NCBI GenBank assembly: GCA_024685175.1
Contig: JAIKWD010000003.1
Span: forward strand, 1-64,000
Direction of reading: 5' to 3'
Origin: Bacteroidales bacterium
GTDB lineage: Bacteria > Bacteroidota > Bacteroidia > Bacteroidales > WCHB1-69
DNA: 64,000 nucleotides
Below the pieces are notes generated by a model. The model saw only the letters and a list, made by a program, of their open reading frames with translations, had not been told where the DNA came from and did not search any database. Within the stretch, counting starts at the first letter, position 1, and the number at the start of each line of letters is the position of its first letter. The translations under genes and the position numbers were made by a program. Positions 30,607-41,002 of the stretch are shown in pieces.

Positions 30607-32394
30607 CTATTTCTTGGCCGCTTTTTTGGAGAACTTTATCTTCCGCATCAAGATAAGGATGACGCCCAAAATGGCGATAAGGCCCAACGGGATGACGATG
30701 TTCAACACGGCGATGAGGGTCTTGTGTCCCCTGACCTTGTCATTGTTGAGAGAGCCGATGCGGAAATTCTTGGTGCGTAGTTGCAGCAAATCGTCATCGG
30801 CGCAGAGATAGTTGACGCAGTTGACGATGAACTCCGTATTGTCGTACATCTTGCGGGTATAGATGTCATAGCCAGCGGGATAGGGCTGGTTGCGTTTCTT
30901 GTCGAAGGGATTGCGGATGATGTCGCCGTCGGAGACGAAGATCTGTCGGGTATATTCGCTCTTATCCCTGAAATCGAGCTCCTTGATGGTGTCGAACTCG
31001 ACGGGGAGGATGCCTTTGAAGGCGGACTCGAACTGGCCTTCGACCAGCACGGCGATAGGCAGGTTGCGGAAGGCGAACTCTTGCATATTGGGCTGCATCA
31101 TGGCCACTTTGAGGGAGACGATAGATGGGGCAGGCACCAATTTGGATCTTTCGGAGCTGGTCATCAAGACTGTTTTGGTCAGGTCGGCATTTTTGCCAAC
31201 GAGGTCTATACTACCCGCAAATTCGGATCTCACCTCCTTGAGATTGCGCACGATGGGATGATCGCCAAAATTCACAATATCAAGGTTATAGGGGAATGCC
31301 ATGAATTTATATTGCGGCTGGTCGCCGATGATGCCCACTTGTTGCGGGATAGGCAGGCAGCTGAGATCTTGAATCAAGTTGGGGTTGATGCGCACGCCGT
31401 AGGTAAAAAACAAGTCATTGATATAGAGGGACCTGGGGGTGGCAAAGAATTCGGGTGAGCTCTGGAGACTATCGAGGGAAGCCGTAGTATTATCGATCAG
31501 CCACAGCACTTTGCCGCCGCGCATGATAAATTGGTCAATGATATATTTGTCATACTCTTTGAACGGCTCGGTCGGCTGGGCGACGATGAGCACGTCGTAC
31601 TTATTCTTGCCGAGTTTCAAGGTCTGGGAGGTTGAATCCTCCACGCTGATATTGCGCAAGCTATTGATCTTGCCATCCAGAGTAATGCGGCTTACGTTAT
31701 AGAAACGTTGCAACTGCATGCCAGTCCAGCAGGTATTCCAAAAATCGAGCTCTCCGTGACCATCCAGATAGGCCACAGACGGTTTTTCGGTTTTCAGTAG
31801 TCGACGAATGGGGGCCACGAGATTGTATTCAAGTTCCTCAATGGAATACTGCATCCAATTGGCACCGGCAGGATCTGACACCACCAGTTTGGCAGGATAC
31901 TCACGATCTCGGTAGGAGACGATAGCGCCAGGCACCACCATGTGCGTGGAATAGCCGCTGCCGTCCTCCCTACTCACTGGAATCGGGTCGAGACCCTTCT
32001 TTACAAATTCTCCTAAAATAGACTGCACCTCATCGTTGGTCTTGCCCTCCAAAGGGTCGATAAACTCGAAATAGACATTCTTGGAATAACTGCGAAAATC
32101 CTGCAACACCTGCTCAACCTGCTTGGCGAAAAGTTGGTAGTCAGCCGGCTGGTCCTTGCCTTTCAGATAGACACGGATATATACTTTGTCCTCCAAGTTG
32201 TTAAGCATCTCAATAGTGCCTTTCGACAGGGAGTGACGTTTGTCTTTGGTCAGGTCGATTCTAAAAAAGAGGAAGGAAGATATGATGTTGACGACGATGA
32301 TGGCCACCAATGCGATCAAAAGGCCGAGGAGGGTATTTCTCTTAAACTGTTTGCTACCCGTTTTCTGTTGTTTGTTCTTGTTTTGGCTTTTCAT
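30607..32394 (-). CDS. gldG: Gliding-motility ABC transporter auxiliary protein GldG
   Basis: A 595-residue GldG family protein. One transmembrane helix near the N-terminus (about 21-44) is followed by a large periplasmic part with the characteristic RHSLSKGTIEMLNNLEDKVYIRVYLKG, the PADYQLFAKQ segment and VAYLDGHGELDFW, and a second helix close to the C-terminus (about 566-588). In Flavobacterium johnsoniae GldA, GldF and GldG form an ABC transporter tied to gliding; many non-gliding Bacteroidota keep it. GldF is 18 bases upstream on the same strand; the ATPase GldA is not in the window. Confidence 0.9.
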   Translation of the reverse strand: MKSQNKNKQQKTGSKQFKRNTLLGLLIALVAIIVVNIISSFLFFRIDLTKDKRHSLSKGTIEMLNNLEDKVYIRVYLKGKDQPADYQLFAKQVEQVLQDFRSYSKNVYFEFIDPLEGKTNDEVQSILGEFVKKGLDPIPVSREDGSGYSTHMVVPGAIVSYRDREYPAKLVVSDPAGANWMQYSIEELEYNLVAPIRRLLKTEKPSVAYLDGHGELDFWNTCWTGMQLQRFYNVSRITLDGKINSLRNISVEDSTSQTLKLGKNKYDVLIVAQPTEPFKEYDKYIIDQFIMRGGKVLWLIDNTTASLDSLQSSPEFFATPRSLYINDLFFTYGVRINPNLIQDLSCLPIPQQVGIIGDQPQYKFMAFPYNLDIVNFGDHPIVRNLKEVRSEFAGSIDLVGKNADLTKTVLMTSSERSKLVPAPSIVSLKVAMMQPNMQEFAFRNLPIAVLVEGQFESAFKGILPVEFDTIKELDFRDKSEYTRQIFVSDGDIIRNPFDKKRNQPYPAGYDIYTRKMYDNTEFIVNCVNYLCADDDLLQLRTKNFRIGSLNNDKVRGHKTLIAVLNIVIPLGLIAILGVILILMRKIKFSKKAAKK

Positions 32395-32412
32395 TTTGCA
32401 ATCATTTTAAGG

Positions 32413-33144
32413 TTACCATTTACGGCTTGACAAGACGATACGAGTGCCAAACAGAAAAATAAAGACCACACTACAGAAGTAAATGACGTCACGTGTATCG
32501 ATGACGCCCTTGCTAATAGAAGCATAATGATGTTCGATGCCGAGCGTCTTCAGGTAATAGCCAAACGCGCCAAGCGACTCGAAGGAGTAGATGAAGGCAA
32601 ATCCGAAGAAGAGGATGAAACAGAGCGCCGCCCCAATGATGAAGGCGATGATCTGGTTGTTCGTTATGCTCGAGGAGAAGAGTCCAATGGCGATAAATGT
32701 CGCACCGAGGAACAAGAGTCCGAGATAGGAACCCCACGTGCTGCCCATATCGATATTGCCAACAGGGTTGCCTATAAAATAGACCGTGATGACATAGATG
32801 AGGGTAGGCAACAAGGCGATGGCAAGCAATGTTAGACAAGACAAGAACTTGGCCCAGATGATCTGCCAGTCGGTAAGGGGTTTTGTAAGCAACAGGTCCA
32901 TCGTACCGGTACGTTTTTCCTCGGCGAAGGAACGCATCGTGATGGCCGGAACGAGGAAGATGAAGAGAAACTGCGAGAGGTTGAACAAGCCCTGCAAATC
33001 GGACAACCCAGATTCCATCACATTATCCACATTAGGGAACACCCACAGGAACAATCCGGAGATAATCAGGAACACGCCTACAAAGATGTAGCCGATGATG
33101 GAGCTGAGAAATGCCTTTAATTCCTTGATATATAAACTAAACAT
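32413..33144 (-). CDS. gldF: Gliding-motility ABC transporter permease GldF
   Basis: A 243-residue ABC-2 type permease with six predicted transmembrane helices, opening MFSLYIKELKAFLSSIIGYI and containing RSFAEEKRTGTMDLLLTKPLTDWQ, the coupling segment typical of GldF/NosY-like permeases. I start it at the ATG at 33144; a TTG one codon upstream is less likely. GldF works with GldG (next gene) and the ATPase GldA. The pair sits directly downstream of the porU-porV-ispF::M3 operon, with a repeat tract between. Confidence 0.9.
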   Translation of the reverse strand: MFSLYIKELKAFLSSIIGYIFVGVFLIISGLFLWVFPNVDNVMESGLSDLQGLFNLSQFLFIFLVPAITMRSFAEEKRTGTMDLLLTKPLTDWQIIWAKFLSCLTLLAIALLPTLIYVITVYFIGNPVGNIDMGSTWGSYLGLLFLGATFIAIGLFSSSITNNQIIAFIIGAALCFILFFGFAFIYSFESLGAFGYYLKTLGIEHHYASISKGVIDTRDVIYFCSVVFIFLFGTRIVLSSRKW

Positions 33145-33185
33145 CAATAAAAAAATTTGGGCGGCGAAGATACAAAAAAGTAAGC

Positions 33186-33326
33186 AGATGATAGACGTTA
33201 GATTTGAGATTTGTTACGTAAGATGTAAGATGTGTGACGTTATTACTTGGTGGGAAAACACACCACACCTCTATCATCTATTATCAATCATCTATTATCT
33301 ATTATCAATTATCTATAATCATTCAC
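33186..33326. repeat. Heptamer-period intergenic tract D (two opposed arms)
   Basis: 33186-33241: agatgat, agacgtt, agatttg, agatttg, ttacgta, agatgta, agatgtg, tgacgtt. After about 29 bases, 33271-33326: ctatcat, ctattat, caatcat, ctattat, ctattat, caattat, ctataat, cattcac. Sixteen 7-nt units in two opposed arms. It lies between the 3' end of the ispF::M3 gene and the start of gldF. Confidence 0.8.
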
Positions 33327-33328
33327 CC

Positions 33329-35827
33329 TCAAATCAGTCCATCCCTTTTCAGCAGGGGTTCGATTTTGGGTTCTCGGCCGCGGAAGTTGCGGAACATTTC
33401 ATCGGCAGGCACGGATCCGCCCTTGGAGAGGATGTATTCCAGGTAGCGGCGGGCGGTCTCTTTGTTCATCACGCCTTCTTCCTGGAACACGGCGAAGGCG
33501 TCAGCCTCAAGCATCTCGGCCCACTTGTAACCATAATAGCCAGCCGCGTAGCCGCCTGCGAAAATGTGCGTGAACGAAGGGCTCATACACGCCTGGGGCA
33601 CGACAGGCAGCACCTCGAGCAGGTCGAACGCCTCACGCTCCTTGGCGTGCACGTCGGCCACCTCCTTGGCGGGCGTGGTGTGATACATCATATCCAGGTA
33701 GCCGAACGAGAGTTGTCGGACGCAACTGTACCCAGCCAAATACTGACGCATTTTCTTGAGTTGCTCCACATAGCGGACGGGCATCGGTTCGCCAGTGAGA
33801 TGGTGAAACGCAAACGTGTTGAGGAACTCGGGCTCCGTGGCCCAGTTCTCGTTCAGTTGCGAAGGCAGCTCCACGAAATCACGGGGCGAGTTGGTGCCGG
33901 AAATCGACTGGTAGGGCACCTCCGACAGCATTCCGTTCAGCGCGTGGCCGAACTCGTGCAGGAAGGTGGTCAGTTCGCCGAAGGTCAGCAACGACGGGTT
34001 CTCGACCGTCGAAGGGGTGAAGTTCATCACGAGACTCACTAGCGGGCGCACATCGTGTCCGGCGACGTCTACATATTGCTCGCGGAAAGAGGTCATCCAG
34101 GCCCCGCTGCGCTTCGTGGCACGCGGGTGGAAATCCAAATACAGGACCGACATAAATCGCTCGTCGCGATACACCTCGTAGACTTTCACATCGGGATGAT
34201 AGGCCTCTATTTTGTCGGTAGGCACGAACCTTAGCCCGTACAGGTTGGCAGCCAGGGAAAACACGCCTTTGATGACATTCTCCAACTTGAGGTATGGTTT
34301 CAGATCCTCGGAGTTGAAGTTGAAAAGATCCTTCTGCTGCTTTTCGGAATAATAGGAAAGATCCCAGCGTTGCAGGTCGTCTTCGAGGCCTTGCGCACGG
34401 GCGTAGGCGTTGAGCGACTCCATCTCGCGCTTGGCGAAAGGCAGAGAGACCTCCCGCAGTTGGTCGAGCAGGTCGTACACGTGCGCACAATCCTTGGCCA
34501 TACGGTCGTGGAGTGCATATTGGGCGTAGTTGTCGTAGCCGAGCAACTGGGCCAGCTCTTCGCGACAGCGCAGGATGCCCTTGATGTTCTCGCAGTTGTC
34601 GAACTTGCCGCCGAAGGCCTTGTCGCAGGAGTGCATAAACATCTCCTTACGCAACTCGCGGTCGTCGGCATACTTGAGGATGGCGGCGGTACCAGGGGCG
34701 GACAAGTCGAAGACATAGCCTTCAAGGCCCTTAGCCTTAGCTCTCTGCTCGGCCACTGCCAGCTCGCCTTCGGGAAGCCCATTGAGACGAGCCACATCCG
34801 TGATGTGCATATACCAACTGTTCGTGGCGGCCAGGGCGTTCTGTCCAAAGGCCAGTGTCAGGTTGGCGAGTTCCACCGACAGCTCGTTGAAACGTTTCTT
34901 CTGCTCCGGAGCCAGGTTCGCCCCATTATCGAGAAAGGCGTTGTACGTACGCTCCATCAGCATCTTGTCCGCACCCACAAGCGCGTCGAACTCGTGCTCA
35001 TGCACGTATTTGACACGGGCGAACAAGTCCTCATCCAAATAGACGCTGTTGGAATACTCAGTAAGCATAGGCTGCACCTCATTAGCGATCTTCTCCATTT
35101 CAGGGGTGGCGTCGCACTCCAGGATGTTGAAGAAGATGCCGGCCACGCGGTTGAGCAACTCGCCGGCGCGGTCAAGCGCCACGATGGTGTTCAGGAACGC
35201 GGGCGGTTCGGGATTGTTTTTAATCTGCTCAATATCCTCCTTGGCTCGGGCAATGCCGTACTCGAAGGCAGGGAAATAGTGCTTGAGTCGTATCTTGGTG
35301 AACGGGGGCGTCTGGTACGGTGTGTCCCACTCGAGGGCGAAAGGGTTGTCATTCTGCGCAAGGGTGACAACGGCCATCGCGGCCACGCCCTCGCCATTGC
35401 CCGTAAAGCCCATCCCTTCGTTGGTCTTTGCCTTGACGGAGACCTTGTCGGCATCCACTTTCAATATGGGGGCCAATGTCTCCACCATCTGATCGATGTA
35501 GGGGCGCATTTTTGGTTGCTCCAATACAAGCGTGCAGTCCACGTTGTTGACGTGCCAGCCTTTGAGATACAGCATCTTCACCACTTTGCCAAGCAGGATT
35601 TTGCTGTCGGCATTCTCGTAGGCCTTGTCGGTGTCGGGGAAATGGGTGCCTATATCCTTGAGGGCGGCGGCGCCGAGCAGGGCGTCGCATAGGGCATGGA
35701 TGAGCACGTCGCCGTCGGAATGAGCGGCCAAACCCTGCCCAAAAGGAATAGCAATGCCCCCAATGACCAAGGGTCTGTTGGGGGCAAATCTATGGGAATC
35801 GTATCCGAATCCTATTCTATAATCCAT
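33329..35827 (-). CDS. IspF fused to a complete M3 family oligopeptidase (Dcp-like)
   Basis: An 832-residue single reading frame with two enzymes. Residues 1 to about 157 are 2-C-methyl-D-erythritol 2,4-cyclodiphosphate synthase (IspF): YDSHRF, GGIAI, HSDGDVLIHALCDALLGAA, DIGTHFPDTD and TNEGMGFTGNGEGVAA, so the zinc and substrate residues look intact. From about 158 an M3 peptidase follows (NPFALEWDTPYQTPPFTK opening; zinc motif HEFGH at 624-628 with the third ligand Glu near 653; FAGGYAAGYYGYKW near the end), about 675 residues and complete. No stop or frameshift separates them; an internal ATG at 35377 could allow separate translation. The start lies five bases after porV. Confidence 0.93.
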   Translation of the reverse strand: MDYRIGFGYDSHRFAPNRPLVIGGIAIPFGQGLAAHSDGDVLIHALCDALLGAAALKDIGTHFPDTDKAYENADSKILLGKVVKMLYLKGWHVNNVDCTLVLEQPKMRPYIDQMVETLAPILKVDADKVSVKAKTNEGMGFTGNGEGVAAMAVVTLAQNDNPFALEWDTPYQTPPFTKIRLKHYFPAFEYGIARAKEDIEQIKNNPEPPAFLNTIVALDRAGELLNRVAGIFFNILECDATPEMEKIANEVQPMLTEYSNSVYLDEDLFARVKYVHEHEFDALVGADKMLMERTYNAFLDNGANLAPEQKKRFNELSVELANLTLAFGQNALAATNSWYMHITDVARLNGLPEGELAVAEQRAKAKGLEGYVFDLSAPGTAAILKYADDRELRKEMFMHSCDKAFGGKFDNCENIKGILRCREELAQLLGYDNYAQYALHDRMAKDCAHVYDLLDQLREVSLPFAKREMESLNAYARAQGLEDDLQRWDLSYYSEKQQKDLFNFNSEDLKPYLKLENVIKGVFSLAANLYGLRFVPTDKIEAYHPDVKVYEVYRDERFMSVLYLDFHPRATKRSGAWMTSFREQYVDVAGHDVRPLVSLVMNFTPSTVENPSLLTFGELTTFLHEFGHALNGMLSEVPYQSISGTNSPRDFVELPSQLNENWATEPEFLNTFAFHHLTGEPMPVRYVEQLKKMRQYLAGYSCVRQLSFGYLDMMYHTTPAKEVADVHAKEREAFDLLEVLPVVPQACMSPSFTHIFAGGYAAGYYGYKWAEMLEADAFAVFQEEGVMNKETARRYLEYILSKGGSVPADEMFRNFRGREPKIEPLLKRDGLI

Positions 35828-35832
35828 AAAAT

Positions 35833-37086
35833 TTAGTTCAATTTGGTCTGGTTTTTGTTGCCACCTTTGTTGAAGGAAGCGAAATCGAGGGAAAGCGTGA
35901 AGCGTAACGTGTTGGCCAATGGGTTCTTCTGTCCATTTGTGGCAAACAGGTAAGAGACATCAATGTTGAAGATGTTATACTTCAAGCCAACGCCCATAGA
36001 CAAGAACTGGCGGTTGCCTTTATACTGGCTCTCGTGGAAATAACCGGCTCGCACAAAGAAGAGGTTACGGTAGCTATACTCAGCACCAAGAGCCCAGATG
36101 CACTCCTGCATTTCCTCACGGAAGCCACGCGGAGCATCGTAGAAAGACTGTATAAGACCTTGCGGCACGGAAACATCGGGGTTGTATCCATACGCAATGA
36201 CGGGGTTGTTATATTCGTCATATATCGTATGTCCCTCCTCGTCCTCTGCATAGACAGGATTCGTGGGGACCAGCAACTTGTTGATCTCACCGGTAAAAGC
36301 CAATTTGTTGTATTCGTCGAAGGCCATTTCGTAACCCAAGCCCAAGCGCAGATTGGCGGGAAGGAAGTCACGACGGTTGGTTCCGCTGGAATAACGCATC
36401 TTGTTACCAAGGTTGGAGATATTCAAACCAGCACGCAACGTAGTGTTTTCCATACTCTTAACACGGAAATCCTGTTCGTAGAACAAGGAGATGTCGGCGG
36501 CACCAGCCAAACCAGGCTTGGTCTCCTGACCGTCCACAAATTGTCCCAAAGTCAAATTGGAGTATACAAAACGCGGTGTCATTGCAATAGACAACTGGTC
36601 AATCAGCTTACGGTTGTAAGTGAAGTCAATGGCAAATTCATTGGGGTTGTAGTCGGCACCATTACTACCATCTTCCGTAAAGAAAATGGAGCCTAAGTTG
36701 AAATAGCGGAGGGAGAATGCGATGGCGTCCATCTCCGTAGGTTTGTAATAAGCACTGAGATAGGCAAGGTTGATACCATCGTCCAAGTGAAGGTTGTGAA
36801 GCCAAGGGCTATACGAAACACTGACACCAAAGATGTTGTCGCTGAACACATACTTGGCCGGGTTGTAGGCCTGGGAGTTCACATCGGCGGAAGTAGCTGC
36901 ACCCATGTCGCCCATAGCACCGCCACGGGAATCAGGGGCGATCTGCAAGAAAGGAACGGCAGTCGTAATAGTGTTCAAATCATCACCAGTTAATTGTCCC
37001 GTCGGGGAAACATTCTGATTCTGAGCCTGTGCTGTAATCAACAACGCCATCATAAACAACGGCAGGAAGAATAGTGCTTTTTTCAT
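35833..37086 (-). CDS. porV: T9SS outer-membrane protein PorV (LptO)
   Basis: A 417-residue outer-membrane barrel of the PorV/LptO family, which in the T9SS picks up cargo after passage through the outer membrane and brings it to PorU. A signal peptide (to about residue 21) is followed by the typical plug-like start TAVPFLQIAPDSRGGAMGDMG and AYNPAKYVFSD, and by 14 or so strands ending in RFTLSLDFASF. It is downstream of porU, upstream of ispF::M3 (five-base gap), all on one strand. The gene order porU-porV matches other T9SS-bearing Bacteroidota. Confidence 0.93.
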   Translation of the reverse strand: MKKALFFLPLFMMALLITAQAQNQNVSPTGQLTGDDLNTITTAVPFLQIAPDSRGGAMGDMGAATSADVNSQAYNPAKYVFSDNIFGVSVSYSPWLHNLHLDDGINLAYLSAYYKPTEMDAIAFSLRYFNLGSIFFTEDGSNGADYNPNEFAIDFTYNRKLIDQLSIAMTPRFVYSNLTLGQFVDGQETKPGLAGAADISLFYEQDFRVKSMENTTLRAGLNISNLGNKMRYSSGTNRRDFLPANLRLGLGYEMAFDEYNKLAFTGEINKLLVPTNPVYAEDEEGHTIYDEYNNPVIAYGYNPDVSVPQGLIQSFYDAPRGFREEMQECIWALGAEYSYRNLFFVRAGYFHESQYKGNRQFLSMGVGLKYNIFNIDVSYLFATNGQKNPLANTLRFTLSLDFASFNKGGNKNQTKLN

Positions 37087-37171: not shown

Positions 37172-40100
37172 TTATAGAATTACTAATTTTTCGATTTTTT
37201 CTGCAATTTCGTTATTCTGGTCGCGAACGCGCACCCGATACATATAGACACCCTTGCCTATCTTGTCGCCGTAATCGTCCAGCCCATCCCACGGAATGCC
37301 CAAACTGCGGTTGCCCTCCATATACAGGGAAGTATTGATGGTCTTGAGAAGCTTTCCGGAAATAGTATAAATCTGAACTTGGATGTCAAACATTCCGCCG
37401 TTTCGGTTTTGTTCAAAGAAAAATTCGGTATGCGTGGTGAACGGGTTGGGATAATTCAGCACGTGACTCAAGGTCAGTTTCTCGTCGGAAAAAACGTCAA
37501 ACGACAACTCGCTCTCAGAGTGATTGTTGTTGATGTCCCACGCCCGCACTTTAATAGTATGATGCCCAACCGACAGATCCGTAAGTCCGTAACGCACGGT
37601 TCCCATATTGAAACTGTCTTTTTCGGTCTCATAATAGTCATTAAGGACAATCTGCGACTCGGTGGAGTTGTCAAGAACGGCAACTAAGTCGTGACCAATG
37701 CCGTTACCTGTTGTATTAATACCATAATTATCCTTAATTTTAGCTATCAAAACCGGATTAGGATCCACGATGCCGCCGTCCACAAAATTTTCATCGTTAA
37801 GGTATAGATCCACTATCGGGCCCTCCTTGTCGTTGATGCCATTAGTATCCGTTCCGCCAATGACAAAGCCGGAAAAAGCGCCTGCCGCATCTTGGACAGT
37901 GCTTCGACCATAGTAACTTATTTTTCCATTGCCAAAGCTATAGTCAATATCCTTGGGCACATAAAAAGTGAACGTAAAACGTCCGTCCTTGACTGAACTA
38001 TTACCCTTGAACAGGACACTTTTTTGCACGTCGAACTCAAACGGTTGGCTACCTGGGTCGTTGGACAAGGTGGATGTCTTCAATTTTTTATCATAGACAG
38101 AAGGAAACACCGTGCCGTTGAAGCCTGATAATGTCTGGCCTTGAGCATCCACCACCCTGCCGCTTACTGTCACTTTGGAAAGGGCACGGATCGTGTCAAC
38201 CTGTTGTCCCACTGCATGATGGTTCACAGAATCCGTAACCACTTGATAGGTTGGAATGGCCAGGGGCATGGATGGGTCACCGAACAACACGAACATGGCC
38301 AACGTGGTGACTGAGCCATCGCGCTGGTTTTTAGCTAACATATTCAACTCTCCCACAGTAGGATAGTGACCGTTCTCGCGATCAAACATTAATCTAAACA
38401 GCTCATAGCCATACATATAATTTGGATAGGACCAGGATTCTCGTGAAGCAGAGATAATAGAGCTGACGCCTCCCTTGTTATTAAACAATGCCAAATCGGC
38501 GGGCGAGAGCGCCGGACGGTCATAGTAGCCGAAAGTACATGAGAGGGAAATCATCAACGGCAGGTTGTATTGATTGGTCCATTTGTTGATGTCGGAGTTC
38601 TCCAACACCCGTTCTGCCGTCCAACCGTCCTTGCCACTATGCCCCACATAGGTTATGGCCAGACAGCCCCGGTTCATTCGGTTGTTGATGGCGTTAGTCA
38701 CATCGGGATAGCGTTGGCCACCGGCATTGGACACCTGCGTAAAAGCATCCAAGTAAATCTTGTCGAAGTTGATGTTCGGATTGGCATTAGACACGATACC
38801 GTAAAAGGTTTCGGTATTATCCACGAATTCCATCTGTTCGTCATCGGCCACAAGAGCCATCATATTACGCCAATCGCCGAGATTCGAGATCTGGGCTGAG
38901 CCCTCTTCCACCAGATTACGATGTTCCGTATAGTTGATGCTCTTGTCCACGGCCGTAGTAGCTTGAGCCACCGTAGAACAAGGGAAACGTCCAACGGGAA
39001 GGTCGTAGAGGCCCACTTGGCTTGCACCTTCGTCGTCGTCCAGCAAGCCGAAGTTGTCATCGTTTGCATAGAAGTTGAGTTCGGAGATGGTGTTTCCGGC
39101 ATAATATTGATAATTGGGCACAAAAATTTCAGTACCCTCTACCCTACCTCTGTAGTCGTAGCAGGGTCGGCCCACCAAAAGCAAATATTTAGGATACAAT
39201 TTATTAGAACGATCATAGATCATTTTCACATAGTCGCGGATAGCCATCGGGTCTTGCGAGCCACCGGAAAACTCGTTGTAAACTTGGTCGATGGTCACCA
39301 CTCTGACTTTCATCCCGTCATTGCTTCGGCGGAAAGAAGCCAATCTGTTGGCTTGAGAGAGAAAACCAGGATGCGTGACAATTACCATATCCACAGCTTC
39401 CGTGGCGTGGAGATTCTGGTTTATGACCATAGCACCTGGATTAATGGACATGTAGGAGGTGCCATCAAAGGCATAGAAACGACGGATCTCGTCGTTGGCG
39501 ACCTTAAAGGAGTACGCTCCGTTGCTAGCGGAAAGAGCATATTGCACCGTAGCGCCGGGTTCGGTCACGTCCCACACGCGGGTAGTGCTAGAAGCGCCAG
39601 CAATATTGTATTGTGCAATATTGCCTACCCCTGCCGCAGCAGGGTTGCAAAACCCGAACTGGGCCGAATGCATCCGCAAGTTGCAGGGGACCTCAATCTC
39701 TATCCAATCCAAATAAGCCGAAGAAGATGTGGTTGGTTTACTGAACGTTAAAGACACCGACAAATTATCGCTATTGGGGACAAAAGTGAATTCAGCCTCG
39801 TTCAATGAAGCCATCGTCGAGCCGTTCACGGCTGTGATGTAGGCATCACCCACATTCTGATGATTCACGCTCACATTCATCCGAGCAAAAGAGTTTGTCG
39901 ATCCTGCGACTGCCAGAGAGATACGCGATGTCGCTTGGTTTTGCCCAGGAACCTTGAAGGAGTATGCGCGCTGATTGGTCACATCGAAAAGATCGCCGAA
40001 CCAATCTTTGCCACTACCACCAAGGTTATACTTGTCATCTTCGTAGAAATCGAAATGTGTATAGGTGCTCACTGTTTCATTGGGCAGCATGGACGAGTTG

Positions 40101-41002
40101 TCCACAATGGCGACTCTTTTCTTCTCACCGATGCCCGGAGTGGAAGTAATGAAATAGCGGGACGAATCCGAGTAGATGTTGATCGCGTGAGTGAACTTAT
40201 GTTCTGACGTATCATAAGTAACGGTGTGGGGTGATTCTCCATAGAAGAGAAAGTAGTCTCCATCGTTAAAGGAGCCGTCGCCGCCATCATGGATAGAGAT
40301 AGGAAGTTCACGAAGGTCGTCATAGCGAGGATCGGCATTGTTCTCGGCCACCATCTTGCCGCCGTTGCCAAACAGGGCAATCTGGGCGGAAGCAATAGGG
40401 GTGGACATGCCCATAGCCACCAAGTCCTGATAGGTCACCTTGTATATGCCTGTGGCCGCCACTTTGAAATCGTACCACTGGCCTGCGGCGAGCACGGAGT
40501 TGGACGTATAGGAGCGTTTGGCGCCGGCGGGTTTTGCCGCCCTGCCCTCAAAAGTAACCGTCAGAGAGGTCACCCGACTAAATTGGTTCTGACCTGTGCG
40601 CACGATAGGCACAAACGACAACAAGGCATAAGGATGGTTACATTCATAGGCCGACACCACCTTGACATCCAGTTCAGAATGGGTATATGTGGCAGGTATC
40701 AAAGTGGCATCGTGAGCACTGAGAGGCTCATATTGAACATCGGTCACCGACACCACATAATCGGTAAAAAAATTATCAACACTTATTTTTTCATAAAAAG
40801 AGGGGAGTGTGGGTGTTTCTTGGAAATAGACGGCATCTGTAAAGTGCAGTATTTCAACAGTTAAATCCTCGGAGTAGAATTCCGAAATATTATCTCTCCA
40901 AGAAATCGTGATATTTTTTTGAATTTTTTGTGCCTGAGTATCAACAATTTGTGCAATAAACACAAAAAATATGGAAAAGGTAACCCAAGATTTGAACTTC
41001 AT
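37172..41002 (-). CDS. porU: T9SS sortase PorU (gingipain-like C25 peptidase)
   Basis: A 1276-residue PorU, the cell-surface cysteine protease that removes the C-terminal signal of T9SS cargo and links the cargo to anionic LPS. A signal peptide (to about residue 24) precedes a long beta-rich region, then the C25 domain with the catalytic His in YVGHSGKDGW (about 787) and Cys in SLSCTFGYYD (about 822). The C-terminus (NYPNPFTTHTEFFFEQ ... GKGVYMYRVRV) resembles a type A sorting domain, as in PorU of other species. It heads the operon porU-porV-ispF::M3 and is divergent from porP. Confidence 0.93.
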   Translation of the reverse strand: MKFKSWVTFSIFFVFIAQIVDTQAQKIQKNITISWRDNISEFYSEDLTVEILHFTDAVYFQETPTLPSFYEKISVDNFFTDYVVSVTDVQYEPLSAHDATLIPATYTHSELDVKVVSAYECNHPYALLSFVPIVRTGQNQFSRVTSLTVTFEGRAAKPAGAKRSYTSNSVLAAGQWYDFKVAATGIYKVTYQDLVAMGMSTPIASAQIALFGNGGKMVAENNADPRYDDLRELPISIHDGGDGSFNDGDYFLFYGESPHTVTYDTSEHKFTHAINIYSDSSRYFITSTPGIGEKKRVAIVDNSSMLPNETVSTYTHFDFYEDDKYNLGGSGKDWFGDLFDVTNQRAYSFKVPGQNQATSRISLAVAGSTNSFARMNVSVNHQNVGDAYITAVNGSTMASLNEAEFTFVPNSDNLSVSLTFSKPTTSSSAYLDWIEIEVPCNLRMHSAQFGFCNPAAAGVGNIAQYNIAGASSTTRVWDVTEPGATVQYALSASNGAYSFKVANDEIRRFYAFDGTSYMSINPGAMVINQNLHATEAVDMVIVTHPGFLSQANRLASFRRSNDGMKVRVVTIDQVYNEFSGGSQDPMAIRDYVKMIYDRSNKLYPKYLLLVGRPCYDYRGRVEGTEIFVPNYQYYAGNTISELNFYANDDNFGLLDDDEGASQVGLYDLPVGRFPCSTVAQATTAVDKSINYTEHRNLVEEGSAQISNLGDWRNMMALVADDEQMEFVDNTETFYGIVSNANPNINFDKIYLDAFTQVSNAGGQRYPDVTNAINNRMNRGCLAITYVGHSGKDGWTAERVLENSDINKWTNQYNLPLMISLSCTFGYYDRPALSPADLALFNNKGGVSSIISASRESWSYPNYMYGYELFRLMFDRENGHYPTVGELNMLAKNQRDGSVTTLAMFVLFGDPSMPLAIPTYQVVTDSVNHHAVGQQVDTIRALSKVTVSGRVVDAQGQTLSGFNGTVFPSVYDKKLKTSTLSNDPGSQPFEFDVQKSVLFKGNSSVKDGRFTFTFYVPKDIDYSFGNGKISYYGRSTVQDAAGAFSGFVIGGTDTNGINDKEGPIVDLYLNDENFVDGGIVDPNPVLIAKIKDNYGINTTGNGIGHDLVAVLDNSTESQIVLNDYYETEKDSFNMGTVRYGLTDLSVGHHTIKVRAWDINNNHSESELSFDVFSDEKLTLSHVLNYPNPFTTHTEFFFEQNRNGGMFDIQVQIYTISGKLLKTINTSLYMEGNRSLGIPWDGLDDYGDKIGKGVYMYRVRVRDQNNEIAEKIEKLVIL

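Follow-up and report, generated by a model that had tools for sequence, protein, structure and literature searches.

A fused ispF-M3 peptidase gene downstream of porV in Bacteroidales and a probable change of compartment of the peptidase

We found that a single open reading frame in the 64,000-nucleotide stretch of DNA analysed here (Bacteroidales bacterium, contig JAIKWD010000003.1, positions 1 to 64,000; hereafter, the window) encodes a complete IspF, an essential enzyme of isoprenoid synthesis, joined to a complete M3 oligopeptidase; the fusion is confined, as far as our surveys reached, to a small set of gut Bacteroidales. Comparison with related loci suggests that this is a genuine bifunctional gene. 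It probably arose from a porV-ispF-M3 row with an exported peptidase, through loss of the stretch comprising the stop codon of ispF and the start codon and signal peptide of the peptidase, which would have made the peptidase cytosolic, carried on an IspF trimer. The features of the locus are listed in Table 1.

Table 1. Features of the ispF-M3 locus and of the second M3 gene (window coordinates unless a contig is named).
Feature	Position	Strand	Remarks
Fused gene ispF-M3	33329..35827	-	832 aa + stop; same frame in 4 further genomes
IspF domain, residues 1-157	35357..35827	-	PF02542, TIGR00151, fit to 5b8f_A
Junction, residues 157-163	35339..35359	-	IspF end to conserved NPF near peptidase start, hardly any linker
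Met151, proposed internal start	35375..35377	-	Not conserved: Thr in 4/4 fused relatives
M3 peptidase domain (Dcp/OpdA type), residues 158-832	33332..35356	-	PF01432; best PDB matches 5l43, 1y79
HEFGH zinc motif, residues 624-628	33944..33958	-	Present in 5/5 fused proteins
porV, directly upstream	35833..37086	-	NF033710, 457.4 bits, above equivalog cut-off 250
porU, T9SS sortase, upstream of porV	37172..41002	-	NF033707, 1188.9 bits, above cut-off 420
Second M3, lipobox-like signal (VCGSC)	G000:C20:24565-26592; also L141		

The original prediction, made from the sequence alone, described a complete IspF and a complete M3 peptidase within one 832-residue frame, and the Pfam and NCBIfam searches confirmed this, with the HEFGH motif at residue 624; the window translation contains no internal stop. 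PF02542 (YgbB/IspF) matched residues 3-156 with 220.2 bits against a cut-off of 26.7, and TIGR00151 (IspF) scored 211.4 bits, above its cut-off of 116.45. PF01432 (Peptidase_M3) matched residues 384-828 with 428.7 bits (cut-off, 27), and the NCBIfam models reached further into the N-terminal part of the peptidase, Dcp covering residues 159-831 and OpdA residues 169-830. The equivalog tests for Dcp (NF007624, 496.6 bits against 944) and OpdA (NF008159, 491.3 bits against 927) both failed at about half of the cut-offs, so that either specificity is possible. The IspDF model NF006899 failed as well, at 207.6 bits against 417, with the IspF part alone matched. Sequence searches of the PDB matched the first 154-159 residues to many IspFs, residues 158-832 to K-26 DCP and residues 161-831 to E. 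coli Dcp. With Dcp and OpdA/PrlC (5l43, 1y79; PF01432) the peptidase shares its fold (TMt 0.95 and 0.94), the HEXXH motif and its full length, but unlike them it carries an N-terminal IspF. Glu653, C-terminal of HEFGH, aligns with the corresponding Glu of E. coli Dcp, which we take to be a ligand residue there. The D-x-H, HSDxD and KAKTxE regions of IspF, presumably ligand positions, were intact in all five fused proteins described below, and 51 of the 52 positions conserved among free IspFs (identical in 35 or more of 39) were unchanged across all five. The fused IspF thus resembles stand-alone IspF (TIGR00151) in its full domain, its conserved positions and its being the sole copy found; it differs in that its last strand enters a 675-residue peptidase, whereas stand-alone IspF has a free C-terminus.

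Among the matches listed, to about E 1e-169, in a search of 104 genomes of the window genome's family, the full frame was present without a stop in at least five (G000, G016, G010, G004 and G037). IspF was matched in 99 of the family genomes, all of them represented in the results, and only the same five had it in a frame of at least 800 residues. A scan of named genomes, in which 80 of 86 loci were kept, contained four fused loci, from goat reticulum (L061), UBA3868 (L062), red deer (L063) and water buffalo reticulum (L068); their identities were those of G010, G004, G037 and G016, respectively, and they were counted as the same species. That the four titled fused records are metagenome bins could point to an assembly or sequencing artefact, but the identical join occurs in five separate species assemblies, UBA3868 and the bins from goat, red deer and water buffalo included. 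Recurrence in independent assemblies refutes this explanation, which we regard as next to impossible. A stop codon between residues 150 and 165, which had been named beforehand as the mark of such an error, was absent from the four further fused genomes and occurred solely in loci that lie outside their clade. G014 and G022, which are less closely related, carry ispF-TAA-M3, which we read as the tandem state behind the fusion and no sign of an error in the window. The dN/dS ratios, obtained over ten pairs by a simple counting method, with the unsaturated pairs used, and rough because dS exceeded 1 in many pairs, were 0.07-0.16 for IspF, 0.025-0.11 for the M3 peptidase, taken in two parts, and 0.02-0.14 for 40 codons around the junction, indicating that IspF, junction and M3 of the fused gene are all under purifying selection. 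A decayed peptidase tail was ruled out by the low ratios together with the intact HEFGH.

The statement of the original prediction that no described protein with this pairing was known still stands, in that no paper on such a fusion was found in the parts of the open-access literature searched. Automatic annotations of the architecture may exist; what appears to be new is the union of two known enzymes, with a probable change of compartment. IspF was matched in 121 of 138 genomes drawn from the phylum, and the window's own frame was the only one longer than 450 aa. In the family, a 551-aa frame of G072 with an IspF-like match was disregarded, its 21.2 bits being under the cut-off. Nine other phylum frames were of at least 277 aa, and in all eight of those read (G613 was left out) IspF was C-terminal, preceded in three by an IspD-like part as judged by eye. 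Frames resembling IspD-IspF fusions by eye occur in L193, L195 and L196 of one other Bacteroidota family, f139. In the order survey, IspF was matched in 369 of 393 genomes, with no frame above 235 aa among the matches listed; the fused G000 and G016 were searched and were absent from those matches, so this survey carries little weight. A scan of viral contigs yielded no relative. IspDF (Campylobacter jejuni and others; PDB 1w55, 8xhu) likewise joins IspF to another enzyme, but there the partner, IspD, is N-terminal and belongs to the same pathway, whereas the partner in the window is C-terminal and belongs to an unrelated one. IspD-IspF is the known IspF fusion, and the C. jejuni protein keeps both activities (PMC5821942).

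The junction between the two enzymes was gap-free in all five fused proteins, whose alignment contains a sole gap, of two residues, at the extreme C-terminus. It had been proposed, as one of two options beside carriage of the peptidase on a trimer, that an internal start at 35377 yields both forms, the full-length protein and a free peptidase. The ATG (Met151) does exist in the window, but the residue is Thr in all four fused relatives, and in L006 the first ATG, GTG or TTG after Met139 is a GTG near residue 164, already within the peptidase. The internal start was rejected as a conserved feature, and we consider two products very improbable.

The five-base spacing between the end of porV and the ATG of the fused gene (35828-35832) was borne out, and the neighbour is PorV by the NCBIfam equivalog cut-off, with porU next upstream. 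All 30 loci examined, fused or tandem, had a PorV match just upstream of ispF, and 22 of them had a PorU match upstream as well; those lacking the latter were six of the L066/L073 lineage, L144, where the contig end cuts it, and L152. In the six (L066, L073, L074, L076, L079 and L097), as opposed to most other loci, no PorU match was found within 2.7 kb upstream of porV. On the same strand of the window, gldF and gldG follow porU-porV-ispF-M3 at 30607-33147, and their products, like PorU and PorV, pass the NCBIfam cut-offs. An AT-rich repeat, three copies of a 21-nt unit, lies just downstream of the fused gene (window 33270-33325); in L016 and L079 the space between ispF and M3 is taken up by other short repeats, recognized by eye. 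Scans for promoters and terminators yielded nothing usable.

The view that the fusion derives from separate genes was supported by tandem porV-ispF-M3 in many relatives within the family. By coordinates, the 40 genomes of the genus comprised 5 with the fused gene, 16 with a tandem of the two genes (15 of them read as loci, G020 from coordinates alone) and 19 with the two apart, including G038, whose M3 matches were of paralogue level only. Of the 64 family genomes that belong to other genera, at least 13, from four genera, carried the tandem. Separate neighbouring porV, ispF and M3 genes are thus widespread, with five or more genera of the family represented. Tandem loci of the same family (L010-L013, L142-L152) have the same genes, order and strand as the window, but encode two separate proteins, the M3 with a signal peptide, where the window encodes one. 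The gap between ispF and M3 was 33 to 214 bases in the genus tandem loci and 0 in the fused five; in L010-L013 the ATG of M3 overlaps the ispF stop.

Signal peptides were called by a hydropathy rule plus the A-Q motif, after leaving out M3 matches shorter than about 450 residues or starting after residue 40 (including L132 and L133). All 11 tandem M3s examined outside the genus carried a Sec signal peptide, as compared with 7 of 15 within it (L009-L014 and L018); it was absent in the other 8, and all genus M3s apart from ispF among the tree rows lacked one. The A-Q motif was present in the cleavage region of 22 of the 24 rows taken as exported, the exceptions being L156 and L158, the latter labelled by the rule with an N-terminus unlike a signal peptide. 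This fits the Q-rule, which is followed by about 71% of the signal peptidase I substrates of the phylum (PMC10653852). In the fused species the stop of ispF is missing, as are the start and the signal peptide of M3, and the joint lies at the place of the export signal that most sampled peptidases from outside the genus carry. Because the tandem state is widespread and the M3 partner in it often has a signal peptide, the fusion has probably, above all, moved the peptidase to another cell compartment. Separately, in a reindeer bin (L132:4004-6024) M3 is spread over several frames beside genes that look BamA- and Skp-like by eye, probably owing to assembly errors.

The order of events was examined with a 58-row M3 tree, in which long branches were flagged among the outgroup rows, a second M3 tree of 36 rows and a 31-row tree of PorU, PorV, IspF and M3 combined, in which six genus loci and two others have no PorU match. 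The fused rows formed one clade in all three, with an SH-aLRT of 98 in the 58-row tree and support of 100/98 and 100/100 in the 36-row and four-gene trees, respectively, by which we judge that the fusion is of single origin, one change on the tree. The window protein branched first, and the other four grouped together (82/69 in the 36-row tree, 100/100 in the four-gene tree). The sister of the fused clade in the M3 trees was the signal-peptide-bearing group L010-L013, with support of 80 (58 rows) and 80/80 (36 rows); the four-gene tree left the base of the genus without resolution. Signal-peptide state changed four times on the 58-row tree, three times within the genus (the fused clade; L008/L022/L028; a 23-row clade), as against two changes in the genus under the alternative grouping of the fused with the signal-less lineage. 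With the family taken as outgroup, the genus more likely started from an exported M3, and export was lost repeatedly. The same peptidase is also signal-less yet unfused in L008, L022 and L028 and in the L007-L031 clade.

The signal peptide may, however, have gone before the fusion, given the sister support of just 80/80, a p-AU of 0.145 and the open base of the genus. It would then have been lost in an ancestor shared with the signal-less lineage, and the later fusion would be a neutral loss of a stop codon between two cytosolic proteins. Signal-less tandems with gaps of just 33-37 bases do exist (L007, L008, L015, L019, L022 and L028), and constraining the fused and signal-less groups together on the 36-row tree, with groups named after the tree had been seen, gave that p-AU of 0.145; on the other hand, the M3 trees seat the fused clade, weakly, beside four signal-peptide-bearing tandem species. 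We regard this order of events as unlikely, though it deserves the most weight among the alternatives.

No second ispF was found in the window genome, rated 98% complete, which ruled out a spare copy that would free the fused one. As the only copy found in a genome that has dxr and ispE as well, the fused IspF must presumably still function and trimerise. Since the fused protein has no signal peptide, the peptidase should be cytosolic, and the M3 of the fused gene most likely now works inside the cell. Such a location would not be unusual within the order, since both potential Dcp genes of P. gingivalis lack signal sequences (PMC8048996). OpdA/PrlC is described as a cytosolic peptidase (PMC8076867, PMC5124237). 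A second M3 with a lipobox-like signal, as judged by eye, was present in 14 of 14 rows, and exactly two M3s in 15 of 16 genomes checked, with G010 (59% complete) showing one. By these counts, L010-L013 probably export both peptidases, and the fused species keep one inside.

An AlphaFold monomer was predicted, with an 87-row alignment as input (the 5 fused proteins, 39 IspF alone and 43 M3 alone, one of the last being the window genome's paralogue). Both folds were modelled with confidence: mean pLDDT was 94.6 and pTM 0.87, every residue reached at least 50, and the block means across the junction were 93 for residues 151-160 and 90 for residues 161-170. The IspF part superposed on 5b8f_A with a TMt of 0.98 and an rmsd of 0.8, and the peptidase part on solved Dcp-type peptidases with a TMt of 0.94-0.95. 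The active sites of IspF lie between subunits, which argues that the fused IspF trimerises, and the IspF part of C. jejuni IspDF is still trimeric. The last IspF strand in the model spans residues 147-158; it starts after the FTGNGEG turn near the cavity opening and should therefore run opposite to the strands that end there. In M. smegmatis IspF, the mouth of the trimer cavity lies where strands 1, 4 and 5 have their C-terminal ends (PMC2151065), and C. jejuni IspD is joined to the IspF N-terminus end via an eight-residue linker (PMC5821942). If the last strand does run opposite, the peptidase would be placed at this same end, where C. jejuni IspD attaches. Carriage on an IspF trimer is plausible; three peptidases would then have to fit there with hardly any linker.

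The almost linker-free, indel-free junction in five diverged species and the confident model through it could also speak for a functional coupling, in which the IspF trimer would act as scaffold or regulator of the peptidase, for example by way of isoprenoid phosphates in its cavity, or an intermediate of the MEP pathway gates peptide turnover. However, the halves merely inherit their neighbourhood, and the best tree has two other genus lineages with a signal-less, unfused peptidase, so that we consider such coupling rather improbable. We know of no metabolic link between IspF and M3.

We favor a simpler course of events, in which no such link is required; its ancestral and derived states come from the comparison above, and the single loss event is what we infer from them. 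The ancestor would have had a porV-ispF-M3 row whose M3 was exported by a Sec signal peptide. One stretch, comprising the ispF stop codon and the M3 start codon and signal peptide, would have been lost, so that IspF came to run with nearly no linker into the conserved beginning of the mature enzyme. Without a signal peptide of its own, the peptidase would stay in the cytosol, where the sole IspF, on trimerising, would carry three of them. There it most likely serves in general turnover of oligopeptides and signal peptides, as its family membership with OpdA/PrlC suggests, and the second, lipoprotein-type M3 would stay outside.

This is a natural fusion of two enzymes outside any shared pathway, in at least five species, and it suggests a route by which an operon neighbour replaces a signal peptide and an enzyme changes compartment in one step. 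As a bolder reading, which we rate a long shot, the fusion would be a retargeting event, in which a housekeeping enzyme took the place of the signal peptide and pulled the peptidase into the cytosol, with the IspF trimer as a permanent scaffold of a three-peptidase particle whose activity is linked to the MEP pathway. One half of a gene such as ispF-M3 may escape automatic annotation. Should IspF form trimers as expected, it would also tolerate a bulky cargo at its C-terminus, which would be relevant to enzyme engineering. The genus offers a natural experiment, in which three forms of one peptidase coexist: one bearing a signal peptide, one lacking it and one joined to IspF.
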